Origin: Acidobacteriota bacterium
Lineage (GTDB): Bacteria > Acidobacteriota > Terriglobia > Acidiferrales > UBA7541
NCBI GenBank assembly: GCA_003223215.1
Contig: QHYH01000136.1
Span: 1-36,847 of the forward strand
Length of the DNA: 36,847 nucleotides
Direction: 5' to 3'
This document shows positions 4,214 to 34,422 of this stretch, in pieces. Made by a program: the position numbers and the translations under genes. The notes beneath the pieces are model-generated. The model did not search any database and had not been told where the DNA came from. It saw nothing but the letters and a program-made list of their open reading frames with translations. How positions within the stretch are numbered: position 1 is the stretch's first letter; each line of letters starts with the position of its first letter.

Positions 4214-5425
4214 CTAAAGCAACTTCATTGGTTCGCGCATCGCTCCCGCCAAATCGCTTAGGAACTCCGCCGCCCGCGCGCCATCCACCACGCGATGGTC
4301 ACTCGAAAGCGTCATCGTCATCATCGGCCGCACCGCAGGCTTGCCTTCGACCGCTACCACTCGTTCGGAAATCGCTCCGACCGCGAGGACTGCCGCTTGC
4401 GGCGGAGTGATAATCGCGCTAAACGCGTCCACCTTGTACATTCCCAGATTGCTCAGCGTGAAGGTCCCGCCGGTGATGTCCGCGGGCCGTAGCCTTCCGG
4501 CTCTCGCCCGTTCCGTCAATTGGCGCCGCTGCGTGGAGATTTCTTCGATCTCGAGCGTATCCGCCTTGTGAACCACCACGCCGACCACCCCATCGTTCAC
4601 CGCCACAGCAACGCTCACGTTGATGTCTCGATTCGCACGGATGCCTTCGTCGGTCCAGCTCGCGTTCATTCGCGGATGTCTCCCGAGCGCCCGCGCAACG
4701 AGAGCGACGAGCAAATCCGTAATCGTCCCTGCCGTACTCTGCGACTTCCCCGCCCCATCGCTCCAAACCTTTTGCGCCTCAAGCAATTCGTTCGCGTCAA
4801 CCTCGCGGACCAAAAAGAAGTGCGGCACGCTTGTCCAGCTCTGCGTGGTGCGCTCGGCCATAAGCCGCGCCAGTTGGCTGGGTCTCTCGAGTCCCGGGGC
4901 CATGGCTCGCGCCATGGGAGCAGGAACAGCCGCTTTCGAATCCGCAAACTTCTGTACGTCCTCGGCGGTAATCACTCCATCGGGTCCCGTGCCACGCACG
5001 AGCGCAAAATCCACTCCCAATTCTTTCGCGAGACGCCGCGCTTTCGGTGAAATCTCGGGAGGCGCATTGGCGACTGCCGTCTTCGTAGCCGCCGCAGCCT
5101 GGGTCGCTGCCCGAGTTTGCTGCGCCCCGCCGCTCCTCGAGCGCGCTCCCGGTGCAGCCGAGGCAACCTGTACCGGCGGCTGCTCGCCCGGGGCCACCAG
5201 CCACGCAATGGTTTCCCCCACGGGAATCACCGCGCCCACATCCGCAGTGATACCCGCCAGCATCCCGTCTCCCGGCGCTTCGACTTCCACCACCGCTTTG
5301 TCGGTTTCAATCTCCAGCAGCGGTTCGCCTTTGCGCACACTCTCGCCTTCTTTTTTTCGCCACGCCAGCAGTTTCCCGGTTTCCTGCGCCATCTCCAGCG
5401 CCGGCATCACCACACTGATTGCCAT
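4214..5425 (-). CDS. Dihydrolipoamide acyltransferase (E2) of a 2-oxoacid dehydrogenase complex
   Basis: E2 core of 403 residues that transfers the acyl group from lipoate to coenzyme A. One lipoyl domain occupies about residues 1-78, with the modified lysine at Lys43 in EIETDKAVVEVEA. An Ala/Thr-rich linker follows, then the peripheral subunit-binding domain at 125-160 (ISPKARRLAKELGV). The catalytic domain runs from about 180 to the end and carries the active-site HRVVDG motif at 377-382 (His377, Asp381). It is the last gene of a run with E1 alpha, E1 beta and an M24 protein, 21 bases after the M24 gene. Pyruvate, acetoin and branched-chain 2-oxoacids cannot be separated by eye. No E3 gene is present, so lipoamide dehydrogenase must come from elsewhere. 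Confidence 0.93.
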   Translation of the reverse strand: MAISVVMPALEMAQETGKLLAWRKKEGESVRKGEPLLEIETDKAVVEVEAPGDGMLAGITADVGAVIPVGETIAWLVAPGEQPPVQVASAAPGARSRSGGAQQTRAATQAAAATKTAVANAPPEISPKARRLAKELGVDFALVRGTGPDGVITAEDVQKFADSKAAVPAPMARAMAPGLERPSQLARLMAERTTQSWTSVPHFFLVREVDANELLEAQKVWSDGAGKSQSTAGTITDLLVALVARALGRHPRMNASWTDEGIRANRDINVSVAVAVNDGVVGVVVHKADTLEIEEISTQRRQLTERARAGRLRPADITGGTFTLSNLGMYKVDAFSAIITPPQAAVLAVGAISERVVAVEGKPAVRPMMTMTLSSDHRVVDGARAAEFLSDLAGAMREPMKLL

Positions 5426-5446: not shown

Positions 5447-6793
5447 TCAGTCCGTCGCCGCTACTCCTTCCGCTTTCGCGCTGGCTTCCACCATTTCTTT
5501 CACGCGCCGGCTTGGCGGCTGTTCGTTTTCGCGCGTCGTCGAAAGCGGCCCGTTTACCGTGTGGTAGTGAGCTCCCGCCACCATCAATTCTTCCGCCGGG
5601 AATCGTGTGATTACTTCATGCCCCGTCGCCGTCACCACGATTTCTTCTTCAATGCGAGCTGCGCTCCATCCGTCGCTCGAGGGCCAGAACGTTTCCAGCG
5701 CAAACACCATCCCGGGCTTGATCGCGTGCGAATGCTCGAGCGAAACCAGCCGGCTGATCACCGGCTTCTCCCAAATCGCCAGCCCGACGCCGTGCCCGAA
5801 TTGCAGGGCGAACGCCGCTTCCTCATCCGGAAATCCAAATTCTTCCGCTTTCGGCCACACGGAGGCGATCTCCGCCGTGGTTCTTCCCGGCCGCACCAAT
5901 TCGATCGCCGCATCCAGATACTCCCGGCACCGTTTGTACGCATCACGCATGGCATGCGATGCGTAGCCAATCGTGAAGCACCGGTAGTAGCACGTGCGGT
6001 ATCCCATGTAGGAATGCAAAATGTCGTAGTACACCGGGTCCCCGGGCCGTAGCATGCGGTCGGAAAACACGTGCGGATGCGGGCTGCACCGTTCGCCCGA
6101 AATGGCGTTAACCGCTTCGACAAATTCCGACCCCAGGTCATACAACACTTTGCTCACCAGCCCCACCGCCTGGTTCTCGCTCATTCCCGGCTTCATCGCG
6201 CGATACAACTCGTCGTACGCTGCGTCCACCATTGCCGCCGAATGGTTCAGCAGCGAAATTTCGTCTTGCGTCTTGATCACCCGCGCATCGCTCATCACCT
6301 GCTGCCCATCGACAACCTTGATGCCCTCCTTCTCAAGTGCAAACAAAATCGGCGGCTCGACGACGTCGACTCCCAACGGCTCTTTGTGCAGCCCGCGCTT
6401 CTCCAGTTCCACTTTGATTTTCCGCGCCACATTTTCCGCGCGACCCATTTCCGGCGACATCGCTCCGCGCAGCAGCGGAATTCCGGCACGCGAACGCTCA
6501 CCAAGCCATGGACAATTCTGCTGGTGATGCCGCGCCGCGCTCCCGAAGTCCCACAAAATCGGTTCGTCATTCTGCGGCAGCAAAGTGAACCGGCTGATCT
6601 TGTCCTGCGCCCACGTTCCAATGTGCGTTGCCGTGATATACCGCACGTTGTTCATGTCAAAACACAGCAGCGCACCCATCTCCGATTTCCCGAGCAGCGC
6701 CTTCGCGCGCGCCAGCCGCTCGCGCCGCAGCCGGTCAAAATCAATGCGGTTCTCCCAGTCCACCGCCATCGGCCCATACGTTTTCAGCGCCAT
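5447..6793 (-). CDS. M24 (creatinase/aminopeptidase-fold) protein with one altered metal ligand
   Basis: A 448-residue member of the M24 'pita-bread' fold group, which holds Xaa-Pro peptidases, creatinase and the DMSP lyase DddP. The N-terminal domain contains GALLCFDMNNVRYITAT and ILWDFGSAARHH, a pattern also seen in DddP-like members. In the catalytic domain, Asp257 (VYYDILHSY), His334 (FGHGVGL), Glu367 (FALETFW) and Glu382 (IEEEIVV) match metal ligands. The bridging Asp, normally in a CSDLTRT-like segment, aligns with Cys268 (RTCYYRCF). The gene sits between E1 beta and E2 with 21-base gaps on both sides, so it is co-transcribed with the 2-oxoacid dehydrogenase. A metal-independent, creatinase-like or lyase-like reaction is possible; ordinary proline peptidase activity is doubtful. 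Function is unassigned. Confidence 0.85.
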   Translation of the reverse strand: MALKTYGPMAVDWENRIDFDRLRRERLARAKALLGKSEMGALLCFDMNNVRYITATHIGTWAQDKISRFTLLPQNDEPILWDFGSAARHHQQNCPWLGERSRAGIPLLRGAMSPEMGRAENVARKIKVELEKRGLHKEPLGVDVVEPPILFALEKEGIKVVDGQQVMSDARVIKTQDEISLLNHSAAMVDAAYDELYRAMKPGMSENQAVGLVSKVLYDLGSEFVEAVNAISGERCSPHPHVFSDRMLRPGDPVYYDILHSYMGYRTCYYRCFTIGYASHAMRDAYKRCREYLDAAIELVRPGRTTAEIASVWPKAEEFGFPDEEAAFALQFGHGVGLAIWEKPVISRLVSLEHSHAIKPGMVFALETFWPSSDGWSAARIEEEIVVTATGHEVITRFPAEELMVAGAHYHTVNGPLSTTRENEQPPSRRVKEMVEASAKAEGVAATD

Positions 6794-6814: not shown

Positions 6815-7810
6815 TCAGCGCTTACCGCACATCGCCCGCGCCGCCTGGAAAACCGCCTGTTCGGTCGGCACCGTCACATCCTCGAGCGGCGGCGAAAATG
6901 GAATCGGCACGTGCATCGCGCCCATGCGCTTCACCGGTGCATCCAGGCTATAAAACGCGCCTTCCGCAATCACCGACGCAATCTCCCCGGACACGCCGTA
7001 CCGCCCGTATCCTTCATCCACCACGATGGCCCGTGAAGTCTTCTTTGCCGACTCCACCAGTGTCTTCTCATCGAGCGGCCAGGTCGTCCGCGGATCAACT
7101 ACTTCTGCACTGATTCCGGCCTTCCCGAGCATTTCCGCCGCGCCCAGCGCCACTTGCACCATGCTGCTTGTGGCCACAATCGTGATATCTTCGCCCTCGC
7201 GCTTCACCTCCGCCACGCCGAAGGGAATGGTATACTCCTGTTCCGGCACCGGCCCTTTCAGCTTGTACATCATCTTGTCTTCAAAAAAGACCACGGGATT
7301 TTCATCGCGGATGGCCGTCTTCAGTAGCCCCTTCGCGTCATACGGAGTCGAAGGCATGGCCACTTTCAGTCCCGGCACGTGGCTTAACCACGCATGCAGC
7401 GATTGCGAGTGCTGCGCCGCCGAACGGCGTGTTGCTCCGAGCGTCGTTCGCAGTACCATCGGCACTTTCCAAGTTCCCCCGGACATGTAATGCACTTTTG
7501 CAGCCTGATTCACGAGTTGATCCATCGTCAGCGTCAGAAAGTCGCCGAACATGATGTCCACAACAGGCCGCAGTCCGGTCATTGCCGCGCCGACGCCCAT
7601 CCCCGTAAATCCCGCCTCCGAAATCGGCGTGTCGAGCACGCGCTCCCGGCCAAATTCCTCGACCAACCCCGACAGAACTTTGAACGGTGTTCCCGCTTCT
7701 GCCACGTCCTCGCCAAAAATGCACACGCGCTTGTCGCGGCGCATCTCTTCCGCCAGCGCCTCGCGCACCGCTTGCGCAAAGGTCAACTCGCGTGCGGGCA
7801 GCTCAGGCAT
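6815..7810 (-). CDS. 2-oxoacid dehydrogenase E1 component, beta subunit
   Basis: Beta subunit of the thiamine-diphosphate-dependent decarboxylase, 331 residues, the normal size. It contains the conserved GEDVAEAGTPFKV opening, the RVLDTPISEAGFTGMGVGAA segment and a C-terminal half with VVDPRTTWPLDE. The frame extends upstream, but ATG at 7810 is chosen: it overlaps the end of E1 alpha (ATGCCTGA) and begins the typical MPELPARELTFAQAV sequence. It pairs with E1 alpha to form the heterotetramer that loads acyl groups onto E2. Acetoin/pyruvate-type enzymes are the closest by motif feel, and branched-chain types remain possible. Confidence 0.93.
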   Translation of the reverse strand: MPELPARELTFAQAVREALAEEMRRDKRVCIFGEDVAEAGTPFKVLSGLVEEFGRERVLDTPISEAGFTGMGVGAAMTGLRPVVDIMFGDFLTLTMDQLVNQAAKVHYMSGGTWKVPMVLRTTLGATRRSAAQHSQSLHAWLSHVPGLKVAMPSTPYDAKGLLKTAIRDENPVVFFEDKMMYKLKGPVPEQEYTIPFGVAEVKREGEDITIVATSSMVQVALGAAEMLGKAGISAEVVDPRTTWPLDEKTLVESAKKTSRAIVVDEGYGRYGVSGEIASVIAEGAFYSLDAPVKRMGAMHVPIPFSPPLEDVTVPTEQAVFQAARAMCGKR

Positions 7811-8801
7811 ATACGTTCTCGTCCGCCTCTTCCGGCTTGGGGTACGGCGCAGCAATCGCAAATTCAACTGCCGCTTTCATCTCCACTCGCACGTTCTTGC
7901 GGATCTCTTCGAGTGCCATCTCGTCCGCCACTCTTTGCTGGATCATCCACCCGGCGAAGTTCTTGATCGGGTCGCGTTTGGTCTTCCACTCCTGCTCTTC
8001 CTGCTTCGACCGGTAATACTCGCGGTTGATGTCGCCCACATGGTGCCCGTGATAGCGATAGGTGTCGCAAACCAAAAACGCAGGCCCTTCGCCCTTGCGC
8101 GCGCGTTCGACAAGCCGTTGTGCCGTGGCGTAAACCGCGCGCACATCCTGCCCATCCACGCCTTCCGCATGCACGCCGAACGCGGCGCCGCGCGCGAGCA
8201 TGTCCCCGGCCGTGGTCTCTGAATAATGCGTGTATTCGTTATAAAGATTGTTCTCGCAAACGTAGATCACCGGCAGTTTCCACAGCGCCGCCAGGTTCAT
8301 CACTTCATACAAAACGCCTTGTCCCAGTGCTCCCTCGCCAAAAAAGCACACCGTCACTTGCCCCGTGTCCAGCCGCTTCGATGAGAGCGCCGCGCCCGTC
8401 GCAATTCCCGCGCTTCCCCCCACAATGGCATTGGCTCCCAAATTCCCCGTCGCCGGATCGGCAATGTGCATCGACCCGCCCTTGCCCCGGCAATACCCCG
8501 CTTCCTTTCCTAGCAGTTCGGCAAACATGCGGTCGGGCGAGGCGCCCTTGGCCAGGCAATGCCCGTGACCGCGGTGCGTGCTGGTGATGTAGTCGGTCTG
8601 CCGCAGCGCTTCGCAAATCCCAACCGCCACCGCTTCTTCCCCGACATACAAATGCGCCAGTCCCGGCATCAGCGCGCGCATATAGAGCTCGTTCACCTGG
8701 TCTTCAAACTCGCGGATCATCACCATGCGCCGATAGATGCGCGTCCAGTGGTCCGCTTTGACGCCTTCAATCACCTTGCTTTGATCCGTGGCAATGGTCA
8801 T
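7803..8801 (-). CDS. 2-oxoacid dehydrogenase E1 component, alpha subunit
   Basis: Alpha subunit of 332 residues. The thiamine-diphosphate/magnesium motif spans about residues 155-185: FFGEGALGQGVLYEV at the start and CENN at the end. Other family landmarks are the STHRGHGHCLAKG segment (74-86), the CRGKGGSMHIAD segment (104-115) and TYRYHGHHVGD near 245, which lies in the phosphorylation-loop area of eukaryotic relatives. The start overlaps the stop of the upstream dehydrogenase by four bases (ATGA), and its own stop overlaps the E1 beta start, so three genes are translationally coupled. The substrate is not defined by sequence; the acetoin dehydrogenase/AcoA-like subgroup is the best guess. 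Confidence 0.93.
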   Translation of the reverse strand: MTIATDQSKVIEGVKADHWTRIYRRMVMIREFEDQVNELYMRALMPGLAHLYVGEEAVAVGICEALRQTDYITSTHRGHGHCLAKGASPDRMFAELLGKEAGYCRGKGGSMHIADPATGNLGANAIVGGSAGIATGAALSSKRLDTGQVTVCFFGEGALGQGVLYEVMNLAALWKLPVIYVCENNLYNEYTHYSETTAGDMLARGAAFGVHAEGVDGQDVRAVYATAQRLVERARKGEGPAFLVCDTYRYHGHHVGDINREYYRSKQEEQEWKTKRDPIKNFAGWMIQQRVADEMALEEIRKNVRVEMKAAVEFAIAAPYPKPEEADENVYA

Positions 8802-9679
8802 TGGGAAACCCCAGCCATCTTCGCCAAAACCGCGAACACCACCGCGAAATCCTTGTCCGCCACTCCCATTCCCCGCGCCGCCGTCAAAAATTCATTCGTC
8901 ACCGCTGTAGTCGGCATGGGCACATCCAACTGCCGCCCCAGTTCGAGCGCCAGCAGCATGTCCTTTTGCATCATGTTGACGTTAAACCACGCCTCTTCCG
9001 GCATTTTCAGCACAAACGGCCCGCGGTACTCGACCATCGGCGACGCGATCACGCTGTGCGTCAGCACATCCACGGCGGTCTCTCTCTTGATCCCGCTCTT
9101 TTCCGCGAGCAGCACTCCTTCGCAGAACGCCAGCATCTGCACCGCCAAGCTTAAGTTCACGCCAATCTTCATGACCAGCGCTTGCCCGTTCTCTCCCACA
9201 TGTGTGACCTTCGGTCCAATGTCCAGCAGCAGCGGCTTCACTTTCTCGAAGGTTGCCTTGCGCCCGCCCGCCATCACCGAAAGCTTGCCTTCCTGCAAAG
9301 TGATCACGCTTCCGGAAACTGGCGCGTCCAACAGGTCGCCGCCTTTTTCCCGCACCTTCTCGGCAAGCTCCCGGCTGAATGCCGGACCCACCGTGCTCAT
9401 ATCCACAAAAATCTTGCCGGGCTTCACCCCCGCGAGCATTCCGTCGGGCCCGTTCATCACCGCCGCCAACGCCGCCGAGTTGGTCACCATGGAAAGCGTG
9501 ATGTCGCTCGCGCTCACCACTTCCCTTGGCGTATTTGCCCACTTCATTCCTTTCTTGATGAGCCATCCCGCTTTCGAACGCGTCCGGTTATATCCTGATA
9601 CGCTGTAACCCTTGCCGAGCAGCCGGTTCACCATCTCGCTGCCCATCACCCCCAGGCCCACAAATCCCAGATTCGCCAT
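8798..9679 (-). CDS. NAD(P)-dependent beta-hydroxyacid dehydrogenase (3-hydroxyisobutyrate dehydrogenase-like)
   Basis: A 293-residue enzyme of the 6-phosphogluconate/3-hydroxyisobutyrate dehydrogenase superfamily, which oxidises 3-hydroxyacids to semialdehydes or reduces tartronate or glyoxylate-type substrates. The Rossmann motif GLGVMG is at residues 8-13, followed by YNRTRSKAGWL, where an arginine-rich loop suggests NADP preference. The substrate-binding stretch DAPVSGSVITLQEGKL is at 118-133 and the catalytic lysine is Lys171 in VMKIGVNLSL. It is encoded just downstream of the GntR regulator and overlaps E1 alpha by four bases. With the aldehyde dehydrogenase upstream, a hydroxyacid to semialdehyde to acid route is conceivable, but that is inference. 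Confidence 0.9.
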   Translation of the reverse strand: MANLGFVGLGVMGSEMVNRLLGKGYSVSGYNRTRSKAGWLIKKGMKWANTPREVVSASDITLSMVTNSAALAAVMNGPDGMLAGVKPGKIFVDMSTVGPAFSRELAEKVREKGGDLLDAPVSGSVITLQEGKLSVMAGGRKATFEKVKPLLLDIGPKVTHVGENGQALVMKIGVNLSLAVQMLAFCEGVLLAEKSGIKRETAVDVLTHSVIASPMVEYRGPFVLKMPEEAWFNVNMMQKDMLLALELGRQLDVPMPTTAVTNEFLTAARGMGVADKDFAVVFAVLAKMAGVSQ

Positions 9680-9725: not shown

Positions 9726-10427
9726 TCAAGCGCCTCTGGCTCTCCGCGAATCTTCTCGCACCTGCCGCATGTGCGTCTTCATCGCCTCCCGCGCTCCCGC
9801 CGCATCGCGGTGCTCCACCGCATCCAGAATCTTCTTGTGGTGATATTGCCCACGCTCCGGCCCGCCCTCCACTTGAAAAATTCCCATTCTCTGCTCGCGC
9901 AGCAACCCCACAATCGAATCGATCAGCGACAAAATGATGGGATTGGCAGCCGCCTCCGCCAGCGCCAAATGAAAATCGAGATCAGCTTCGATGAACGCGT
10001 CGGGATCCCTTTTCGCTCCTTCCATCACTTCAAACGACTCCCGCATGGCGGCAAGATCCTCGGCATCGGCGCGCTCCGCCGCCAGTGCCGCGATTTCCGG
10101 TTCCATCATTTCCCGGACTTCCGTCAAATAGCGCGAACCTTCGGCCTGCCCGGCCTTCATCATGCGATCGAGCGACAGCCGGATCGGGTGGGAACTGGTT
10201 TCCATAATGAAAGTCCCGCGCCCGGGATAAGCCTCGACGAAACCTTTCTCGCGCAGGGCTTTGACGGCTTCGCGAACCGCCGTCCGGCTCACGCCAAATT
10301 GTTGGGCCAGTTCGCGTTCCGGAGGCAGCCTGTCGCCGGTTTTGAGCGCGCCCTTTTGGATGGATTCCTCTACCTGTTGGACAATCTGTTCGTACAAACG
10401 GGAGGAACGCACAACCTTGTACATCAT
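9726..10427 (-). CDS. GntR-family transcriptional regulator, FadR subfamily (PdhR/LldR-like)
   Basis: A 233-residue repressor or activator. The N-terminal winged helix covers about residues 8-75, with IQKGALKTGDRLPPERELA and FGVSRTAVREAVKALREKG as classic GntR recognition sequences. The C-terminal FCD all-helical ligand domain follows; its LDFHLALAEAAANPIILSL and HKKILDAVEHRDAAGAREA stretches carry the Asp and His residues that bind metal or a carboxylate in this subfamily. Start: two adjacent ATGs at 10427 and 10424; GGAG lies five bases before the first. The gene heads the operon of the hydroxyacid dehydrogenase, E1, M24 and E2 genes. A TGGT-N3-ACC site 42 bases upstream suggests autoregulation, as in the E. 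coli PdhR arrangement. Confidence 0.9.
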   Translation of the reverse strand: MMYKVVRSSRLYEQIVQQVEESIQKGALKTGDRLPPERELAQQFGVSRTAVREAVKALREKGFVEAYPGRGTFIMETSSHPIRLSLDRMMKAGQAEGSRYLTEVREMMEPEIAALAAERADAEDLAAMRESFEVMEGAKRDPDAFIEADLDFHLALAEAAANPIILSLIDSIVGLLREQRMGIFQVEGGPERGQYHHKKILDAVEHRDAAGAREAMKTHMRQVREDSRRARGA

Positions 10428-10468
10428 AAGCTCTCCGGAAATCGGGGCGGAAGGAGCTCGCCACACTG

Positions 10469-10479
10469 TGGTATTACCG
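10469..10479 (-). promoter_or_regulatory. Candidate FadR-subfamily operator upstream of the GntR gene
   Basis: The plus strand reads TGGTATTACCG, one base away from TGGT-N3-ACCA. That dyad is the core recognised by PdhR, LldR and GlcC type regulators. It lies 42 bases upstream of the regulator's own ATG, where a bound repressor would block transcription of the whole dehydrogenase operon. A second, exact copy of the core is upstream of the aldehyde dehydrogenase. Binding is inferred. Confidence 0.5.
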
Positions 10480-10500
10480 CTTGACCATACGAAATTACCG
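10473..10500. repeat. Two ATTACCG direct repeats spaced 21 bp
   Basis: ATTACCG occurs at 10473-10479 and again at 10494-10500, a period of 21 bases or two helical turns. On the minus strand they read CGGTAAT. The first copy is part of the candidate TGGTATTACCG operator. Phasing on one face of the helix is typical of paired regulator half-sites. Confidence 0.4.
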
Positions 10501-10536
10501 ATTTTCCGAAACTTAGCACCTGCGCTGGTCCTCGAC

Positions 10537-10555
10537 TGGTCGGATTGTCGGACCA
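10537..10555. promoter_or_regulatory. Inverted repeat TGGTC-N9-GACCA upstream of the GntR operon
   Basis: Perfect 5-bp arms, TGGTC and GACCA, flank nine bases (GGATTGTCG). It lies 110 bases upstream of the regulator start, in the gap after the aldehyde dehydrogenase. The half-sites match those of the FadR-type operator but the spacing is wider, so it may be an auxiliary site or chance. Confidence 0.35.
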
Positions 10556-10596
10556 ATCTACCAGACCCTCTTCCCCTTTGCAATCTCTCTCACACC

Positions 10597-11961
10597 CTAC
10601 TCAATCCAGACCGTCTTGATGTTGGTAAACTCGCGGATCCCGTGGACTCCCAATTCCCTGCCGTGCCCCGACCACTTCACCCCGCCAAACGGCAGCCGCG
10701 GATCGGAGGCGACCATCCGGTTGATGAACACCATCCCCGCTTCGAGATCGTTGATGAATCGCTCGCGTTCCTGGTCATCGTTTGTCCACGCGCTCGCTCC
10801 CAATCCAAACCGGCTGTCGTTGGCAATGCGGATGGCGTCGTCCAGGTCCTTCGCCCGGAACACGCTCGCGACCGGGCCGAACAGCTCTTCCTGATGAGCC
10901 GGCGAGCCTTTGGGAATATTGGTCAACACCGTTGGCGCATAAAAATTCCCCGGCCGAGCGAGCGGTTTGCCACCTGTCAGCACTTTTGCGCCTGCTTCCA
11001 CGGTGGCTTTCACGTCGCGATCCAGGTCTTCTAGCCCCTGTGCCGATGACAGCGGCCCCAATTCGGTAGCCTCGTCAAACGGGTCCCCAACCTTCAGCGC
11101 CGCCATCTTCTCCGCAAACATTTTTTCAAACTTCTCCGCAATCCGCTCGGCCACAATGAATCGCTTGGCCGCGATGCACGATTGCCCATTGTTGAAAATT
11201 CGCGCTTTCACCGCCGTGCTGGTTGCCGCCTCCAGATTCGCGCTCGGCATCACGATAAACGGATCGCTGCCCCCCAGCTCCAGCACGACTTTCTTGATTC
11301 TCTTGGCCGCCCCAACGCCCACTTCGACGCCGGCGCCCTCGCTTCCCGTCAACGTGGCCGCGGCGACACGCGGATCTCCCAGCACGCGGTCCACTTTTTG
11401 CGAGCTAATCAGCAGGGTCTGAAACACGCCGTCGGGAAAGCCCGCTTTGTGAAAAATCTCTTCAATCATGAGCGCCGATTGCGGCACGATCGAAGCGTGC
11501 TTCAGCAGGCCCACGTTTCCGGCCATCAGCGCCGGCGCCGCAAACCGCAGCACCTGCCAGAACGGAAAATTCCACGGCATTACAGCCAGCACCGGGCCGA
11601 GAGGCAAATAGCGAATGAAGCTGCGTTTTGCCGTTGTCTCCACCACCTCATCCGCCAGGATTCGCTCGGCATTTTCCGCGTAATACCGGCAAACCCACGC
11701 GCACTTCGCGGCTTCATCCACGGCCGACCGGAAGGTCTTCCCCATTTCCGTGGTCATCACCCGCGCATAACTCTCTTTTTCCTTTTCTAGGACCCTAGCC
11801 GCGTTCTCGATCAGCCGCGCGCGCTCGGCAAACGGCGTTTTGCGGTAACTCAAAAATCTGTCAGCCGCTTTCTGGAGTTTCACTTCGAGCTCGGCGTCCG
11901 ACAGCGATTCGAAGGTCTTCACTACCTGCCCGGTCGCGGGATTCACCGTTGCAATGGCCAT
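10597..11961 (-). CDS. NAD(P)-dependent aldehyde dehydrogenase, succinate-semialdehyde dehydrogenase (Sad/YneI) type
   Basis: A 454-residue aldehyde dehydrogenase. The general base is Glu228 in VVLELGGSDPF and the catalytic nucleophile is Cys262 in NNGQSCIAAKRF. The AAKRF sequence after the cysteine and the overall length resemble E. coli Sad (YneI) rather than GabD. VMPWNFPFWQVLRF at 128-141 forms part of the nucleotide site. The open frame continues far upstream, but the ATG at 11961 begins the standard MAIATVNPATG start and follows a GGAGG. It is separated by about 170 bases from the GntR gene on the same strand. It may oxidise the semialdehyde made by the neighbouring hydroxyacid dehydrogenase; that link is inference. 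Confidence 0.92.
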   Translation of the reverse strand: MAIATVNPATGQVVKTFESLSDAELEVKLQKAADRFLSYRKTPFAERARLIENAARVLEKEKESYARVMTTEMGKTFRSAVDEAAKCAWVCRYYAENAERILADEVVETTAKRSFIRYLPLGPVLAVMPWNFPFWQVLRFAAPALMAGNVGLLKHASIVPQSALMIEEIFHKAGFPDGVFQTLLISSQKVDRVLGDPRVAAATLTGSEGAGVEVGVGAAKRIKKVVLELGGSDPFIVMPSANLEAATSTAVKARIFNNGQSCIAAKRFIVAERIAEKFEKMFAEKMAALKVGDPFDEATELGPLSSAQGLEDLDRDVKATVEAGAKVLTGGKPLARPGNFYAPTVLTNIPKGSPAHQEELFGPVASVFRAKDLDDAIRIANDSRFGLGASAWTNDDQERERFINDLEAGMVFINRMVASDPRLPFGGVKWSGHGRELGVHGIREFTNIKTVWIE

Positions 11962-12072
11962 TTCTTCTCTTCCTCCACGGGTCGGCTTCGGTGCGAGGAG
12001 CGCTTCGCTCGCTCCTGCTGGAATTCGTTCCGGATGGAGATGACCCTCGACAGAGATCATGATCCTTGTGTC

Positions 12073-12083
12073 TGGTCTAACCA
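12073..12083 (-). promoter_or_regulatory. Candidate FadR-subfamily operator (TGGTCTAACCA) upstream of the aldehyde dehydrogenase
   Basis: An exact TGGT-N3-ACCA dyad, the PdhR/LldR/GlcC core, in the divergent intergenic region. Its edge abuts a minus-strand TATAGT at 12088-12083 that could serve as the -10 element of the aldehyde dehydrogenase promoter, although no good -35 is visible. Together with the similar site before the regulator gene, it suggests both units answer to the same regulator. Confidence 0.5.
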
Positions 12084-12132
12084 CTATACCCCATTTCTCC
12101 ATCCAGCAAAAACGGCGAGCTTTCATTTCTCC

Positions 12133-12161
12133 TTGACACGCTTTGCCGCCGAGTGGTACAG
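12133..12161 (+). promoter_or_regulatory. Candidate sigma-70 promoter for the LVIVD-like gene
   Basis: A perfect -35 hexamer TTGACA at 12133-12138 is followed, 17 bases later, by GTACAG as a weak -10. The coding start is 64 bases downstream of the -10. The 263-base gap from 11962 to 12224 between divergent genes holds only this and the operator candidate. Confidence 0.35.
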
Positions 12162-12224
12162 CGGTCATACCTTTTTGGCTGGCCCTTGGTTCCGCCAGCC
12201 TGCCATTCTAGGAGCCTCTCGACG

Positions 12225-13838
12225 ATGCGCGCTCGCCATGGCCGCAACAAGCTGCGCCCGCAAATCTTCCAGGGCGGCAGCCACCTTACGCCAAACGAAG
12301 GCGCCTCTCGGCCCACCCGCCGCGAGTTCCTCCGCAAGGCCGCCGGCGCAGGTCTCGCCTTGGCTGGCTCTTCCCTTACCGCATGGGGTGACCATCACGG
12401 CCACCCTACTCCCAACAGCATCACGTATCTCGACCGCCGCATGTACATTCACAACATGGAGCTTCTCGCGCATTTCGTTCCCGGGCAGCATCGCGGCGGC
12501 AAAATGCAGATGATGTCGGTTGGCAGCCGCCGCTACCTGGTGCAACAAGGCGACGTCATCGACATAAGCGACGTTCGAAAGCCCGCCATGTTCAACAAAG
12601 GCGGCTTCGAAGGTTACCAGGTCCAGGTCGCTTACAACAAAAACCTTAAAAAGTGGATCCTCATGACCGGTGCGCAAACGCCTATCACCGATTCCACGCC
12701 GGAAGCGCCCATGGGCAAGTACGACGATCCCCACCTCGACGACAAGCGCAAAAACTACAAGGGCCTTCGCGGCGTCCGCTTTTACGACGCAAGCGATCCC
12801 GCGAAAATGGTCAAGATCTCCGAATTCAGCACCGGCGCAACCGGCCAGGGCACGCATCGCAATTATTATGACGGCGGAAAATACGCCTATCTCGACACCG
12901 CGCCGGACGAGACTTTTATTCACCAGCCTTCCTACTTTCGTGAACTCGTCAACGGCAACATGATTGTCGATGTTTCCGATCCAGCCAGCCCCAAAGAAGT
13001 CTCGATGTGGTGGGTGCCCGGCTCGCGCAGGGGCGAGGAAGCCGAATACGACAAATGGATTTGGTCAAAGCTCGTTCCGCCGAAAGTCGTTGCCGATCAA
13101 ACTCCGTTCGCAGGACTGCACGGTCCCGTCTACGTGCCGAAAAAATGGGAAGATGGAGGCCATCGCGGGTACGGAGCGTTTGGCTGCAACGGTTTCATCA
13201 TTCTCGATCTTTCCGATCCCGCGCATCAACAAGAAATCGGCCGTTTCGAACCGCCACCGCAATACTCCGGCATGGGCATCGCTTTCCACACGATTTACTG
13301 CGGGATTCTTGAACGCGGCTTCGTCATTGCAAACGGCGAAACCACGAACTCCGACTGCAACCAAATCTACCTGCCGAACTGGGTCATCGATATTCGCGAC
13401 GAGCAGAATCCTGTCCCGGTCGCCCAGCTTCCTCGGCCCGTTCCGCCGCCCGAGGCCCCCTATCGCGATTTTTGTTTCAAGCGTGGCCGCTTTGGCGCGC
13501 ACAATCCGCCGCATCTCAAAGCGCCGGGAAAGCCGCGCCAGGAATTCATCGCCTATTCGTACTTCATTGCCGGGTTGCGCTGCTACGACATCGGCGATCT
13601 TACCAAGCCCGAAGAAGTCGCTTATTTTATCCCGCCGCAGGGCGGCGACTTGAAGAAATTCGGCAGTTACGACCGCACCGTGGACAACGTCTTTGTCGAA
13701 TGGGACCGCAACGTGATCTGGTGCGCCGCCGACACCGGCCTGTATGCGCTTGCTTGTCCGAATCTCGGCAAACCCGTTCTCGATCCCCTGCCCGTCGCGG
13801 AATGGTCGCTCGACAGGCTCAACGAAGGTGCGCCCTGA
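12225..13838 (+). CDS. Tat-exported LVIVD-repeat-like beta-propeller protein
   Basis: A 537-residue protein of unknown biochemical role. After an N-terminal extension it has a Tat signal at about residues 33-55 (RREFLRKAAGAGLALAGSS). The body contains repeated strands of the form 'V.D.SD..P', for example VIDISDVRKPAMF, FYDASDPAKMVKI, MIVDVSDPASPKEV, IILDLSDPAHQQEI and CYDIGDLTKPEEV. This is the LVIVD pattern of predicted propellers, usually surface or periplasmic. The ATG at 12225 is preferred to an earlier in-frame GTG at 12153 because AGGAG lies ten bases before it. The next gene in the same direction encodes a periplasmic binding protein. Enzyme activity cannot be inferred. Confidence 0.8.
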   Translation: MRARHGRNKLRPQIFQGGSHLTPNEGASRPTRREFLRKAAGAGLALAGSSLTAWGDHHGHPTPNSITYLDRRMYIHNMELLAHFVPGQHRGGKMQMMSVGSRRYLVQQGDVIDISDVRKPAMFNKGGFEGYQVQVAYNKNLKKWILMTGAQTPITDSTPEAPMGKYDDPHLDDKRKNYKGLRGVRFYDASDPAKMVKISEFSTGATGQGTHRNYYDGGKYAYLDTAPDETFIHQPSYFRELVNGNMIVDVSDPASPKEVSMWWVPGSRRGEEAEYDKWIWSKLVPPKVVADQTPFAGLHGPVYVPKKWEDGGHRGYGAFGCNGFIILDLSDPAHQQEIGRFEPPPQYSGMGIAFHTIYCGILERGFVIANGETTNSDCNQIYLPNWVIDIRDEQNPVPVAQLPRPVPPPEAPYRDFCFKRGRFGAHNPPHLKAPGKPRQEFIAYSYFIAGLRCYDIGDLTKPEEVAYFIPPQGGDLKKFGSYDRTVDNVFVEWDRNVIWCAADTGLYALACPNLGKPVLDPLPVAEWSLDRLNEGAP

Positions 13839-14039
13839 TTGCTCCTTCATCGGTTACAAGGCCGCCGGGGCAATCAACACCGTTTCCTTGTTCATGAATC
13901 TGGAGAAATTCCCATGAACTCCCATGAATCATTCGGCGGTGATTCTGACCCTCAGATCTGCCGCCGCCTGAGCCGCGGATCGTACGTTCCGTGCGCCTCG
14001 CCGGAGCGGCCGGATCTGTTTCCGCCTGTGAACTCCAAG

Positions 14040-15038
14040 ATGCGTCTTTTTCGACTATTGGCGGCAATGTCCGCCTCGACTCTCTTCTCGACCATGCTCA
14101 CCGCGCAAAAACCCATGCCAACCCAAATCAAATTGCTCACGTTGCTCGGTCGCCCGCTGCAACTTGCCGCCGCCGAGAAGCTCGACCTCTTCTCCGAATT
14201 CGGCGTCGCGGTCCAAACCGAAAATTCCGCGAATTCCCAGGAATTGCGTGACAAACTTGCCGCAGGCAACGGCGACCTCGCTTATCTCGCGGTTGACAAT
14301 GCCGTGGCCATGGTCGACCTCGCTCAGCAGGACGTCGTCATCGTCATGGGCGGGGAAGGCTCGCAAAATGAACTCATCGCCCAGCCGGAAATCAAAGCCA
14401 TCAAGGATTTGCGCGGCAAAACCCTCATCGTCGATGCGCCGAACACAGCCTACGCCGTACAGCTCAAAAAAATTCTTCTCCTCAGCGGCCTCGAACCCGG
14501 CAAAGACTACGAGATCAAGCCCGTGGGCGCAACGCCGCAGCGCTTGATTGCCATGCGCGAAAACAAATCCTACGCAGCCTCGATGCTCGGCCCGCCCAGT
14601 TCCATCATTGCCAAGCGTGAAGGGTTCGTCAGTCTTGCCGCCGTCGCAGCATCCATCGGGGCGTACCAGGCCGCGGGCTTCTTCGCCGAGCGCAAGTGGG
14701 CCCAAGAGCATCGCGGGCCACTCACAAGCTTTCTCGCCGCTATCATCGAAGCGCAGCGCTGGCTCGTAGCGCCCGCCAACAAAAATGAAGTCCTGGCGCT
14801 GCTGACCAAAGAAGCGCATCTCGCCCCGGAAGTCGCCGCCGAAACCTACGAAAACAGCATGACCAAGCCCGGCGGCTTTGCGAAGGACGCCGCCTTCGAT
14901 CTGAAAGGTTTTCAAAATGTCCTGAAGCTGCGCGCGGAAATCGAAGGCTCCTGGGGCGGCCATCCGCCGGCCCCCGACAAATATTACGACCCTTTGTTTT
15001 ACGAAGAAGCTCTAGCAAAGTTGAAGAGCAAGCCCTAA
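14040..15038 (+). CDS. Periplasmic substrate-binding protein, NMT1/THI5 (SsuA/TauA) type
   Basis: About 332 residues from the ATG at 14040, which opens a good signal peptide (MRLFRLLAAMSASTLFSTML). Upstream, in-frame ATG 13914 has a better ribosome site (GGAGA) but would add 42 hydrophilic residues before the signal, so either start is possible. The mature part follows the SsuA/THI5 plan: an ELRDKLAAGNGDLAYLAVDNA stretch samples ligand, DLRGKTLIVDAPNTAYAVQL marks the hinge, and LSGLEPGKDYEIKPVGATPQR precedes the second lobe. No permease or ATPase gene follows, so it is an orphan component in this window. Ligands of relatives include sulfonates and pyrimidine thiamine precursors; the ligand here is unknown. 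Confidence 0.82.
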   Translation: MRLFRLLAAMSASTLFSTMLTAQKPMPTQIKLLTLLGRPLQLAAAEKLDLFSEFGVAVQTENSANSQELRDKLAAGNGDLAYLAVDNAVAMVDLAQQDVVIVMGGEGSQNELIAQPEIKAIKDLRGKTLIVDAPNTAYAVQLKKILLLSGLEPGKDYEIKPVGATPQRLIAMRENKSYAASMLGPPSSIIAKREGFVSLAAVAASIGAYQAAGFFAERKWAQEHRGPLTSFLAAIIEAQRWLVAPANKNEVLALLTKEAHLAPEVAAETYENSMTKPGGFAKDAAFDLKGFQNVLKLRAEIEGSWGGHPPAPDKYYDPLFYEEALAKLKSKP

Positions 15039-24156: not shown

Positions 24157-24173
24157 GGAGCCTCCAGCGGTGA

Positions 24174-24204
24174 CAGACGCGGTTCACGCGGGTTGAGGCG
24201 TCTG
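24174..24204 (-). promoter_or_regulatory. Leader hairpin upstream of the molybdopterin subunit gene
   Basis: Perfect 7-bp arms CAGACGC (24174-24180) and GCGTCTG (24198-24204) enclose 17 bases in the 5' leader, close to the ribosome site. It may be an operator or an RNA hairpin. Confidence 0.35.
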
Positions 24205-24216
24205 CCACGCCGAAGC

Positions 24217-24222
24217 ATTGTA
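24217..24222 (-). promoter_or_regulatory. Candidate -10 element (TACAAT) for the molybdopterin subunit gene
   Basis: The minus strand reads TTTACAATGC about 60 bases upstream of the ATG. TACAAT is a good -10 hexamer, but no convincing -35 is seen 16-18 bases upstream. Confidence 0.3.
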
Positions 24223-24309
24223 AACCCAAATTCAGTGCTTGGTGACGGGTGAAACGATCGCCATGCGTCGCGGTTCAGTCGAGGAGAAATTCCCCACTGC
24301 TCGGGCGGA

Positions 24310-24331
24310 CCACTTCGCGGGGGCGAAGTGG
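24310..24331. repeat. REP-like hairpin CCACTTCGC-GGGG-GCGAAGTGG
   Basis: Perfect 9-bp arms with a GGGG loop. Flanking bases (GTTCGGAATGA at about 24354-24364, read on the minus strand as TCATTCCGAAC) look like the ends of dispersed palindromic repeats that often lie between genes in this phylum. No T-run follows on either strand, so it is not a standard terminator. A single copy is visible in this window. Confidence 0.35.
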
Positions 24332-24397
24332 AAAGACAGGGTCAGCCCGCTGCGTTCGGAATGACAGCGCTGATGTGCGGTGCGTGAAATACCCTCG

Positions 24398-25702: not shown

Positions 25703-25766
25703 GCGCGTTGCTCCTGACTGGGTGCGGACAGCGGCACACGCGTCGAGAACTGGCTCACGTTGTACC

Positions 25767-29014: not shown

Positions 29015-29044
29015 CTCCGGTTGATTCGCTCCAGCCGGTCCATT

Positions 29045-30564: not shown

Positions 30565-30606
30565 GCTTCGCAGTCCTCCCGGGACTGTCGCTCTCTTTTG
30601 CGGTGC

Positions 30607-30633
30607 GAAAAAAGGGCCGCAGGAGGCCGGCCT
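30607..30633 (-). terminator. Intrinsic terminator after the TonB-dependent receptor gene
   Basis: On the minus strand GGCCG and CGGCC form a 5-bp stem (30632-30628 and 30619-30615) around a GCCTCCTG-like loop, followed by CTTTTTT at 30614-30608. It lies between the receptor stop and the DUF4440 gene, so it would separate the two transcription units. Confidence 0.5.
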
Positions 30634-30666
30634 TTCTCTCGCTTGGCCTTTCAAAACAGCGGAAAC

Positions 30667-33600
30667 CTAAAAGATAAATTTCAAACCCAACTGAATGGCG
30701 CGGTTGCTGCCGGAACCGAGCACAGGATTAAACGCGGCATTATCCGGTGTGGCGCAACCACAGCCGAAAGAACCGGGCTGTGAGGGATCAGCGAAAGCTC
30801 CCTGCCCGTAACCGCTGGTCGCGCCATTGGGATTGGCAAAGTCGGGGTGATTGAAGATGTTGAACGTCTCAATGCGGAATTGTGCCCGGAGGCGTTCGCC
30901 GAATTTGAAATTCTTGCTGACGGATAAGTCGACGTTGCGAAAGCCGGTATCGCGGAAGACGTTGCGCCCGAGAGTGCCAAATGTGCCCAGCCCATTCGGT
31001 ATCAGGATAGAATTGACGTTGGCATAACAACCGGCAATGCCGAGGGCTGTCGTGAAGGGCTGAATCGCGTTTGTTCCGTCAAGAGCTGCTGCCTTTTGAG
31101 CGCACGCTGAATTGCTAGTGCCTGGGAAATAGGGAAGTCCATTAGGCCCTTGGGATTTAAAGTCAGAGGGATTGCCATAGAAATTCCAGCGGTCGGCCAG
31201 TTCACCCGTCCCGCTGAAATCAAAAGACTGGTCATTGATGTTCCAGGGCTGGCCGCTTTGCAAGGTGATGATGGTATTGACCTGCCAGCCTTCCAAAAGC
31301 TGGCTCTTAGTCTTCATCTCGGGAAGAGTGTAAGTTATGGAGAATGTAAAGCGATGGCGAATGTCCTCATCGCTGCTGGCATGGTCCAGCAAGGGACGCC
31401 CGCTATCCATGGGAAGGAACGCCACCCAGTTCGAAGACAGATCGTCCAACGCGTGTGAGTAGGTATAGCCAGCCACAAAATCGAGACCGTGGTAGTTTCT
31501 GGCTGTCAGCGTGGTCTGCAGACCATGGTAGGTAGAGCCGTAGAAATTCGACAGATAGTTGAGAAAGCCCAGGTAGGGGGCCTTGCCGTTGAGCGTGTAG
31601 GGGCGCTGAAGCTGCTCGTTGCCGTCATTATTCGCCGCGCCCGCAGCAATGTCGGCGGCCGTCCATCCCGAACCAGCTGCAGGTTGATTGAGATCGACAA
31701 CGCCAGGCAGCTTGACGCCATGATTGCCAACATATGTCGCATCGATAGACAGCTTTCCCGAAAACGCATGCTGGATCCCAAGCGTCCAGTTTTCGACATA
31801 AGGAGTCCGGAAGTTGCGATTCATCGCAAACGAATCGCAAGGGTTGGCGTTTCGGAGGCCGTCTCCGCACTGGACCTGACTCGTTATGCTGGAGGGATAG
31901 ATGGCCGTGGTCTGATCCTTCCAGGTGATCCCCACAGGGTTGCTGGGACTGGTTGGGGAGAGCGTGACCCCGGTAGCAAAAATGCTCCCGATACCAGGAC
32001 AGCCGCTCGCGCATTGCGCCCCGTAAATGAGCGTGGCTCCCGTGGGTACGGTACCAACACCGAGCGTAACCGTATTCTGTGTATTTTGCTGGGACATGAA
32101 AGTGCTCATGGTGAGGAGGCTATAGACGATACTGCCGCCAGCGCGAACGACAGTTGTTCCCTTGCCAGTCACATCCCAAGCCACTCCAAGGCGTGGCGAA
32201 AAGTTCTTGTGGTCAGGGTTGTAGATTGAACTGATGTTTCTCCCTACCTGTTCAAATGCACCAGTGGCTATATCAACGTTGCCGAGGAGATTTCTGGAGT
32301 CCGTGGGAACCGCCTGGAACTCGTAGCGAAGGCCGAGGTTAAGAGTAATTCTTTTCGTGATGCGCCAATCATCCTGCGCGTAACCAGCATAGAGCCATTG
32401 CGACATATTCCTAGTGGGGTCGCCTGCAAGAAAATTGACGTTGTGCACTGCACCACTTAGAAAATCTTCGAACGAATTAAACTTGACTCGCCCTCTGCCT
32501 GCGCGGAACGTTGCCTGATGCACTAAGTCCCGGCGCAATTCGCCGCCAAACTTAAAGGCATGTTTGCCACGCAAATTGGAAACCTGATCGATAAAGTCGT
32601 AGACCTTATCCGGACCCACGATTTTGGGAAAGTTGTGGAAGGCTCCCAATTCTGTGAGGCCGGTAATTCTTACATTCGGTATGCCGTTTAACAGAGGATT
32701 CGTGATTCCTGTGTTGATCGTGTACTTCGTCGAAATATCGTTCGGCAAAATCTGAAGCGTATAATGCGTAAAACCTCCCCGCAATTCGTTAGCCCAAGTT
32801 GAGCTGGGGGTCCACGCCCAGTGCGCAGCTAATGCCTGCGCTCGGGAATGGACTCTGGTGCGGAACTGTGGCAGTAGCTCGTTGAAATCCATGCCGATTA
32901 TGGTGTCATTGCCAAAGAAATACGATCCGCTGAGCGCATTGTGGTCGCTAATGTGGTAGTCCACTTTGCCAAGGGCGTTTTTTGAACTGTTCACATTGGG
33001 GTAGTTGAGCGATACAAACGATCCCTGTGAAGCGTTGGGGGTATAAAAACCCAGCAAATAGTTTGAGAGCGGATTGACAACGAAGCTAGGATTTTGAGCT
33101 TTGAGGTCAGCGGTGGCATCCGCGATGCTGATTGTGCAGTCCCCTGTCGCCAGTGCGGCGCAGCCGTTACCACCGCCGCCTGCAACCGAAGCGGTTGTCG
33201 GGACATGTCCGGGAAGCGCATTGCCCACGGTGTACATCTGTCCCTCAAAGGCCCCGAAATAGAAGAGCTTGTCAGGAATGATCCGCCCCCCAAAGCTACC
33301 TCCATATTGCTCTAACTCGACGGGCGTCTTGGGAGTGCCCGCAGGATTGAAGTAGTTGCGTGCGTCAAAGGAATCTTTACGACCGAAGCCGTATGCCGTA
33401 CCATGTACCTCGTTTGTGCCCGATTTGAGGCCGACGCTGGTGATGGCTCCTGGTTTCCAACCGAATTCCGCTTTCGGATTGACCTGGGTGTTGAATTCCT
33501 GAATGGCGTCGATAGGGATGAGGGTCGCCGCATCGCCGAGGACCGCCGCGGCGTTGGTGACGCTTAAACCCATGAAGGACTCATCGTTGGTGACGCCATC

Positions 33601-34209
33601 GACGATGTAGCTGGTGTCCTCCGGACGAACGCCGTTGGTGGTCTGCGTCCAAGGACCACCGCCGGGATAGATGGAAGTTCCAGGACGCAGCGAAATCAAG
33701 TTTTGGTAGTTGCGGCCGTTCAAGGGGAGGTCGTTGATGATTTCGTTGCTGATCGTGCCGCCCAGCGTTGTGGAGGTGGTGTCTACCATCGGGACCTCTG
33801 CCGTGATGACAACGGTTTCATTGGTCGAGCCCGGTTGCAGCACTGCGTCCACGCGCACATCCTTGCCGACTTCCACGAGAACATTTTTGCGCTCGAAGGT
33901 TTTGAATCCTTTGTACTCGGCGCGAACGGTATAGGTCCCCGGGAGAAGGTTGACCGCCGCGTAAGCGCCATCGGAGTCGGTATTCAGATTCTGCGTGACA
34001 CCTCGGGCCACGTCCGTAATCGTGACTTTGGCATTGGCGACGAAACCGCCCGATTGGTCGGTGACCACACCCAGGATACGGCCGGTGCTGCCCTGCGGAT
34101 TTGCAGGGCTACCAAGGAGCGCGATCGCGAAAAGCGCGGTCACAGCCACCGCAAGCCTGGAAAGGCGTTGGTTCACAGGTACAGTGTTCCGGAGACTCTT
34201 GGACCGCAT
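30667..34209 (-). CDS. TonB-dependent receptor with N-terminal carboxypeptidase-regulatory domain (Oar-like)
   Basis: A 1180-residue outer-membrane transporter. A signal peptide covers about residues 1-39. A carboxypeptidase regulatory-like beta-sandwich follows at about 42-125 (GRILGVVTDQSGGFVANAKV, with LLPGTYTVRAEYKGFK). The plug domain has the phylum-typical DLPLNGRNYQNLISLRPG motif. A large beta-barrel then runs to the C-terminus, which ends in LGLKFIF with a terminal aromatic residue, as expected for BAM-dependent insertion. GGAGG lies five bases before the ATG. Barrels of this type take up large or scarce substrates, often saccharides, using energy from TonB. No SusD-like partner is present. 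The ligand is unknown. Confidence 0.95.
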   Translation of the reverse strand: MRSKSLRNTVPVNQRLSRLAVAVTALFAIALLGSPANPQGSTGRILGVVTDQSGGFVANAKVTITDVARGVTQNLNTDSDGAYAAVNLLPGTYTVRAEYKGFKTFERKNVLVEVGKDVRVDAVLQPGSTNETVVITAEVPMVDTTSTTLGGTISNEIINDLPLNGRNYQNLISLRPGTSIYPGGGPWTQTTNGVRPEDTSYIVDGVTNDESFMGLSVTNAAAVLGDAATLIPIDAIQEFNTQVNPKAEFGWKPGAITSVGLKSGTNEVHGTAYGFGRKDSFDARNYFNPAGTPKTPVELEQYGGSFGGRIIPDKLFYFGAFEGQMYTVGNALPGHVPTTASVAGGGGNGCAALATGDCTISIADATADLKAQNPSFVVNPLSNYLLGFYTPNASQGSFVSLNYPNVNSSKNALGKVDYHISDHNALSGSYFFGNDTIIGMDFNELLPQFRTRVHSRAQALAAHWAWTPSSTWANELRGGFTHYTLQILPNDISTKYTINTGITNPLLNGIPNVRITGLTELGAFHNFPKIVGPDKVYDFIDQVSNLRGKHAFKFGGELRRDLVHQATFRAGRGRVKFNSFEDFLSGAVHNVNFLAGDPTRNMSQWLYAGYAQDDWRITKRITLNLGLRYEFQAVPTDSRNLLGNVDIATGAFEQVGRNISSIYNPDHKNFSPRLGVAWDVTGKGTTVVRAGGSIVYSLLTMSTFMSQQNTQNTVTLGVGTVPTGATLIYGAQCASGCPGIGSIFATGVTLSPTSPSNPVGITWKDQTTAIYPSSITSQVQCGDGLRNANPCDSFAMNRNFRTPYVENWTLGIQHAFSGKLSIDATYVGNHGVKLPGVVDLNQPAAGSGWTAADIAAGAANNDGNEQLQRPYTLNGKAPYLGFLNYLSNFYGSTYHGLQTTLTARNYHGLDFVAGYTYSHALDDLSSNWVAFLPMDSGRPLLDHASSDEDIRHRFTFSITYTLPEMKTKSQLLEGWQVNTIITLQSGQPWNINDQSFDFSGTGELADRWNFYGNPSDFKSQGPNGLPYFPGTSNSACAQKAAALDGTNAIQPFTTALGIAGCYANVNSILIPNGLGTFGTLGRNVFRDTGFRNVDLSVSKNFKFGERLRAQFRIETFNIFNHPDFANPNGATSGYGQGAFADPSQPGSFGCGCATPDNAAFNPVLGSGSNRAIQLGLKFIF

Positions 34210-34266
34210 GAAGACCTCCCCCCCACGGAACGAAATAGGTATAGACGCTCTACCACCATACGAGAA

Positions 34267-34279: not shown

Positions 34280-34422
34280 ATTCCATTGATTTTATGCACA
34301 AAAGCAACCGATGGAAGGTCGAGCTTAGGGATATTGGTCTATTGGTATGACCGGAGACGCCTTCGCTGCGGAAGCAATGCGACAAGTTCTTTTCGCCCAA
34401 AAGCCATTCCGAAACAGCCGGA

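Follow-up and report, generated by a model that had tools for sequence, protein, structure and literature searches.

The window analysed here is a stretch of 36,847 nucleotides from an Acidobacteriota genome (G000, 8.8 Mb), in which a regulator gene of the GntR family stands second in a collinear minus-strand run. The order on that strand is aldehyde dehydrogenase (ALDH), FCD-type GntR regulator, 3-hydroxyisobutyrate-dehydrogenase-like protein, 2-oxoacid dehydrogenase E1 alpha and E1 beta, an M24-family enzyme and 2-oxoacid dehydrogenase E2. A first-pass annotation had noticed two TGGT-N3-ACC(A/G) dyads, one before the regulator gene (9726..10427, minus strand) and one before the ALDH gene (10597..11961, minus strand), and had taken them for a PdhR-like regulon. 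Both dyads are present: the first starts 42 bases before the regulator ATG at 10427, and the second abuts a minus-strand TATAGT, reading TATAGTGGTTAGACCA on the minus strand, with one base (12083) common to both. The regulator is, as had been stated, of the FadR/FCD type, with a GntR winged helix-turn-helix (HTH) and an FCD domain, and TKGT-N3-ACMA operators, at which binding is predicted, lie before its own gene and the ALDH gene. The dyads are real but make up the inner part of a larger composite site; what had been missed is an additional half-site at a distance of 8 bp and the predicted operators C1, B, D and E.

Counts alone place the dyads near chance. TGGTNNNACCR matched 4 times in the window, with the palindromic match entered once per strand, versus 1.39 expected, and 6 of 100 shuffles also reached 4. 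The one-mismatch form of TGGT-N3-ACCA did exceed chance in the window, at 15 versus 7.5 expected, with none of 100 shuffles as high. Genome-wide, TGGTNNNACCA was not enriched (98 per strand versus 126 for the reversed pattern). TTGGT-N3-ACCAA with one mismatch gave 194 matches per strand, equal to the control, and its count was therefore dropped as a means of finding the regulon. The dyads are more than chance because they are conserved at orthologous promoters, and it is this conservation that lifts both to predicted operators. The first-pass annotation had named a lack of conservation of both dyads in close relatives as grounds for refutation, and the comparison with relatives gave the opposite result.

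Conservation was followed in two sets. The genus set comprised 36 genomes, 19 with the regulator (the window genome counted) and 17 without it, some of the latter being incomplete. The named-genome set comprised the best 80 of 366 regulator loci; the nearest are metagenome-assembled genomes (MAGs) of Acidobacteriota subgroup 2, the more distant ones belong to subgroup 1, Sulfotelmatobacter and Edaphobacter, and 16 of the 80 loci appeared by eye to overlap the genus set, so that the two sets are not independent. In relatives, a site was scored when it had at most one or at most two mismatches, as indicated, to the 11 fixed bases of a 19-mer, TGGT-N5-KGT-N3-ACCA. All conserved blocks align to this composite, in which an extra TGGT half-site precedes the inner repeat by 8 bp. 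In the named set, a site (at most one mismatch) was found within 400 bp upstream of the regulator at 67 of 80 loci, and was exact at 57; as controls, 76 coding windows held no site at all, and each of five shuffles had sites at 0-2 of 80 loci.

So that the outer half-site played no part in selection, spacing was analysed from the inner TKGT-N3-ACCA alone, at 68 deduplicated anchors drawn from 40 loci, a palindromic anchor being entered once per strand. GGT stood exactly 8 bp upstream of the inner repeat at 44 of the 68 anchors, the next spacings being 3 bp (14) and 16 bp (11), and coding control stretches contained no inner-repeat anchor. Among 123 distinct 19-mers the fixed positions are biased by selection, but information is also carried by positions unused for it, namely 5 (A, 0.69), 7 (A, 0.64), 9 (T or C, 0.91), 13 (C, 0.64) and 15 (G, 0.69). 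A weak ACC follows at positions 24-26, beyond the 19-mer, and at some sites the outer half-site is mirrored downstream, giving a 27-bp array.

Two predicted operators precede the regulator gene. Operator C2 (10469..10487, minus strand, TGGTCAAGCGGTAATACCA) contains the first dyad as its inner part (10469-10479), and 10 of the 19 genomes have the exact composite there. Eight of the other nine carry a site (at most one mismatch) at the block of operator C1, and L044 has, instead of C2 at its place, an exact site in the opposite orientation 56 bp upstream. C1 (10537..10563, no strand assigned) is a symmetric 27-bp array with half-sites every 8 bp. Its promoter, as read from the sequence, has the minus-strand -10 box TAGATT (10560-10555) inside the array and a -35 box TTGCAA (10583-10578), with a spacer of 17. 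All of the 19 genomes but L044 have C1 within one mismatch; among these 18, it lies 112-136 bp upstream in 16, at about 180 bp in L045 and at 67 bp in L048.

Operator A (12073..12091, minus strand, GGGTATAGTGGTTAGACCA) covers the -10 box TATAGT of the ALDH operon and includes the second dyad (12073-12083). The footprint TATAGTGGTTRGACCAA, or a related form with at most two mismatches to the 19-mer, was present in 17 of 17 ALDH promoters. For operator A itself we could read no good -35 box in the sequence. Operator B (12154..12172, plus strand, TGGTACAGCGGTCATACCT) lies in the promoter of a divergent LVIVD-repeat gene, with a -35 box TTGACA at 12133-12138 and a spacer of 18. Of the 17 genomes that have an ALDH promoter, 15 keep it within one mismatch, L042 and L045 in reverse orientation, and L044 has it too. 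It is missing in L046 and L047; in the corresponding genomes (G007 and G010) the LVIVD gene is elsewhere, without the motif, as in G009. The LVIVD gene under B (12225..13838, plus strand, Pfam LVIVD) is followed by one for an NMT1-like solute-binding protein (13914..15038, plus strand, from a profile match); this order is kept in relatives wherever both were seen, and the two are probably cotranscribed. Of five rows in the comparison of LVIVD promoters, those of G030 and G017 proved to be gene interior and were left out.

The conserved unit coincides with promoters. Operator positions 4-9 correspond to the -10 hexamer, the commonest forms being TATGGC, TACAGC, TATAGT, TATGGT and TAGATT, and TTGACA (at least 5 of 6 bases) stood 16-19 bp from these positions at 79 of 193 sites versus 62 of 3860 base-shuffled upstream flanks. 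In many sites, therefore, the -10 box is flanked by the outer half-site on one side and the inner repeat on the other. The same two facts would be expected if the blocks were promoter elements, an extended -10 box with the initial transcribed region, rather than operators. We consider this very improbable, since neither ACCA downstream of the -10 box nor the ACC 8 bp further on is a promoter element, and since C2 keeps all half-sites without a clear promoter.

The predicted operators reach beyond the run. About 24 kb from the operon, the promoter of a gene for a TonB-dependent receptor-like outer-membrane protein (30667..34209, minus strand; Pfam OMP_b-brl_4, 584 bits) carries two operators absent from the first reading. 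Operator E (34237..34255, minus strand, TGGTAGAGCGTCTATACCT) has a -35 box TTGACA (34276-34271) with a spacer of 18, and similar sequences occur upstream of TonB-receptor orthologs. Operator D (34335..34353, plus strand, TGGTCTATTGGTATGACCG) shares the intergenic region with E and came from the genome-wide motif search. This search of the window's own genome (at most one mismatch) gave 88 matches in 8.8 Mb versus 129 for the reversed pattern; six of the 88 fell in the window, at five places (C1 twice), and the one unused in defining the motif was operator D at 34335.

Exact 19-mers precede TonB-receptor orthologs at nine places in eight genomes (G018, with two, G030, G008, G015, G029, G011, G017 and G014), those of G015 and G029 being taken from the exact-site search, as the stretches read for them in the upstream comparison were gene interior. 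In five of these eight genomes the site was on a contig other than that of the operon. Sites with one or two mismatches precede the ortholog in G024, G019, G007, G010, G022 and G020. In G003 and G031 (L042 and L048) a different TonB gene occupies the divergent place by the regulator or operon (50-51%, or 45-47% to the receptor of the window). The TonB-like gene of G001 (49%) had no site in the 169 bases available on its contig, and G002 had no TonB match. In the named set, 48 of the 67 loci with at least 2.3 kb upstream had a TonB-receptor match; in subgroup 1 genomes receptor and regulator are often immediate divergent neighbours, and TGGTATGGCTGTCGGACCA lies in the region that separates them.

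The genus set also bears on which protein would read these sites. Exact 19-mers versus reversed ones numbered 56 versus 32 in the 19 genomes with the regulator and 13 versus 23 in the 17 without it (Fisher p 0.009); by our tally, 28 of the 56 were at the operon (19) or the TonB promoter (9). That another DNA-binding protein reads the sites, the FCD regulator being merely a neighbour, appears decidedly unlikely: the excess over the control is limited to regulator-bearing genomes, the sites precede the regulator gene itself at most named loci, and they match the FadR-subfamily consensus. Such a protein would fit the presence of other FCD paralogs in these genomes and the case of G009. This genome (L078 and L092), which has no regulator ortholog, has a one-mismatch site ahead of its TonB receptor, and its SDF symporter/AmOx locus is preceded by an exact 19-mer; another regulator of like specificity may read the same motif there.

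G009 thus counts against an operator read by this regulator throughout, as do several other observations. Thirteen of the 80 named loci lacked a site within 400 bp; at seven of these one lies farther out, in front of another upstream gene but still within 2.3 kb, and six (L162, L163, L166, L180, L183 and L197) had none in the examined upstream stretch of 2.3 kb or shorter. Operator E keeps the outer dyad, but its inner half is degenerate, with three mismatches to the 19-mer. In promoter sites TGGT overlaps an extended -10 position, so that its conservation could in part be that of the promoter. Many loci come from close relatives and are not independent. The genomes are drafts, in which location on separate contigs is no proof that the TonB gene is unlinked.

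The genes behind the regulator keep its company. They encode the 3-hydroxyisobutyrate/tartronate-semialdehyde reductase-like dehydrogenase (8798..9679), the pyruvate dehydrogenase (PDH)-like E1 alpha (7803..8801), E1 beta (6815..7810, start chosen from the translation), the M24-family enzyme (5447..6793) and E2 (4214..5425), all on the minus strand and assigned from profile matches, the M24 enzyme also from alignment with structure entries. The ALDH resembles succinate-semialdehyde dehydrogenase (Pfam Aldedh, 460 bits; PRK09406, 694 bits with a cut-off of 730). Sixteen of the other 18 regulator-bearing genomes of the genus keep this order throughout the extracted stretch, as far as contig ends allow; in that stretch L044 lacked ALDH, and L048 lacked ALDH, E1 and E2. 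The M24 gene (E 1e-60 or better; 84-98% conserved in the genus) occurred in exactly the 19 regulator-bearing genomes. Of the 18 of these besides the window genome, 17 have a close ortholog of E1 alpha (74-91%), which none of the 17 genomes without the regulator has (best match at most 46%). The link is not fixed. Among the 58 named loci at which 5.6 kb or more follow the regulator start, three (L166, L186 and L193) had neither M24 nor reductase, and L205 had no E1 alpha in the stretch after the regulator.

The first-pass annotation had likened this arrangement to E. coli PdhR; in such a system pyruvate or a related 2-oxo acid would be the signal, and the regulator would adjust a 2-oxoacid dehydrogenase complex through TGGT-N3-ACCA. 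The run of E1, E2 and ALDH genes with sites before the regulator and ALDH stands as described, and the inner core is identical to the site that precedes E. coli pdhR. In addition, E1 alpha reached 348 of the 394 bits needed for the PDH E1-alpha family, is closer to PDH than any of the three other E1_dh proteins in the genome (one of which is 2-oxoglutarate-dehydrogenase-like) and had mammalian PDH E1 alpha as its best match in the PDB. The run's E1, judged by its distribution, is nonetheless not the housekeeping PDH of the genus, because a close ortholog of its alpha subunit is absent, together with the regulator and M24, from 17 of the 36 genomes. Furthermore, in G031, which carries the regulator and M24, nothing in the genome matches E1 alpha at E 1e-40 or better, and at L162 regulator, reductase and M24 are consecutive without E1. 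The core fits the FadR-subfamily consensus (PdhR, LldR, GlcC and others) and is therefore no pointer to PdhR in particular, the consensus being common to the whole subfamily. In the E. coli PdhR site we saw, by eye, no further half-site at a distance of 8 bp.

The protein itself does not support the PdhR label either. It has 233 residues and scored above the cut-off for Pfam FCD (114.3 bits) and GntR HTH (80.6 bits); the 18 other full-length orthologs of the genus are 66-97% identical. No curated NCBIfam family was reached (NanR, 152 of 260 bits; LldR, 140 of 311; PdhR, 115 of 330), PdhR thus scoring below both NanR and LldR. In a free tree with E. coli paralogs the orthologs stood apart from PdhR, LldR and GlcC. 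Placement is weakly determined: a clade with these three was not rejected by the approximately unbiased (AU) test (p 0.12), nor was joining with NanR (p 0.52). Taken together, these data make the PdhR-like explanation unlikely.

The regulator may have a metal-linked effector pocket. H153, H197 and H219 are invariant, and D149 is kept in 18 of 19 alignment rows, the remaining row being deleted there; this matches the Asp and three His that we take to be the metal ligands of FCD domains. A structure model (mean predicted local distance difference test score (pLDDT) 75, predicted TM-score (pTM) 0.49), with Foldseek matches at TM-scores of 0.25-0.39, is informative for the fold class at most.

We compared the regulator and its operator with known systems. 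The FadR-subfamily consensus is TKGT-N3-ACMA (PMC4494728). PdhR, LldR and GlcC of E. coli share with our regulator the subfamily and the inner TGGT-N3-ACCA (seen before pdhR, and taken from this consensus for LldR and GlcC), but identities are 28-33%, scores are under the equivalog cut-offs, and the targets here include a TonB receptor. E. coli NanR gave the best NCBIfam score, and its GGTATA half-sites are set at steps of 9 and 8 bp, the latter being the step found here. Its dimers bind cooperatively about half a turn apart, on direct repeats only, with a 32-residue N-terminal extension for cooperativity (PMC8012715). Here, in contrast, the inverted repeat is kept, the HTH begins near residue 11, so that about 10 residues precede it in place of that extension, and identity is 28%. 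The top Foldseek match of the weak model was DhdR of Achromobacter (9jpj, chain labelled PDH repressor), also an FCD-type repressor. DhdR responds to D-2-hydroxyglutarate and represses dhdR and d2hgdh through a single 13-bp palindrome, GTTATCAGATAAC (PMC8651671), unlike the composite described here. Atu1419, a tetrameric FCD protein of the VanR group, represses its own gene and other promoters through palindromes that overlap -10 boxes (PMC7797058), as our sites do; these palindromes are of 10 bp and in one promoter region lie 190 bp apart with DNA looping, as opposed to the phased half-sites here.

We think it probable, from the sequence comparisons above, that the gene encodes an autoregulated FCD-type GntR repressor that runs an uptake-plus-catabolism regulon through the composite operator. 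Most likely a dimeric, metal-containing protein, it would bind the TKGT-N3-ACCA inverted repeat and the TGGT half-site exactly 8 bp upstream. Because the -10 hexamer occupies operator positions 4-9, the bound repressor would hide it and block RNA polymerase at the ALDH operon, at the regulator's own promoter, at the divergent LVIVD/solute-binding promoter and at that of the TonB receptor. A carboxylate of the pathway, substrate or intermediate, would release it; such an acid is more likely than pyruvate to be the signal, because in G031 the regulator and M24 are retained while this E1 is missing. By analogy with NanR (PMC8012715), dimers might bind cooperatively. More tentatively, and with slightly less than even confidence, we propose a hybrid operator that joins a PdhR-type inverted repeat to a NanR-type half-site phased by 8 bp, on which two or more cooperating dimers would occupy alternate helix faces and hold the -10 box between half-sites, an arrangement kept across Terriglobia that would couple outer-membrane uptake to catabolism.

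This appears to be a new arrangement of a well-known type of switch and no copy of E. coli PdhR. The operator joins two geometries known separately in PdhR and NanR, and one protein could show how FCD dimers read both inverted and direct half-sites. It provides a footprinted regulon and an operator code for a soil phylum, the Acidobacteriota, for which a limited literature search found no described FCD regulon of this kind. It also names linked genes for joint testing on one substrate, with the TonB receptor as the entry point.

Other observations concern the members of the run and its surroundings. The M24 enzyme aligned nearly full length with presumed DddP-type structures. Its GYxxDxTR motif has Cys268 at the second Asp position (Cys in 75 of 75 aligned segments) and keeps the first Asp, and His334, Glu367 and Glu382 are kept as well; these five are presumably the M24 metal-ligand positions. 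We did not adopt an assignment as a dimethylsulfoniopropionate lyase (DddP), given a score of 113 of 600 bits and the Cys at one Asp ligand position. At L186 and L193, second regulator copies occur in two MAGs that also have an operon copy; their neighbours are a TonB receptor or Fer2/MoCo genes, and the catabolic genes are missing there.

Outside the window, weaker motif matches were not accepted as regulon members: that on C240 is inside a long open frame, those on C176 and C109 were unconvincing, and an exact 19-mer on C235 looked coding by eye. On C109 (L213, around 813), the TGGT-containing dyad precedes a GntR/MocR-like gene (MocR by eye) and could reflect unrelated autoregulation. At three unlinked LVIVD promoters (L116, L117 and L118, from G010, G007 and the operon-less G009) a ATACAAATGTAT-like dyad replaces operator B, which suggests an exchange of regulator. 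Finally, the TonB receptor gene heads a minus-strand series (21922-34209) with two DUF4440 proteins, Gfo/Idh/MocA, creatininase, cupin, 2-hydroxyacid dehydrogenase, an SDF symporter and a molybdopterin-binding subunit, which perhaps belongs to the same catabolic programme.

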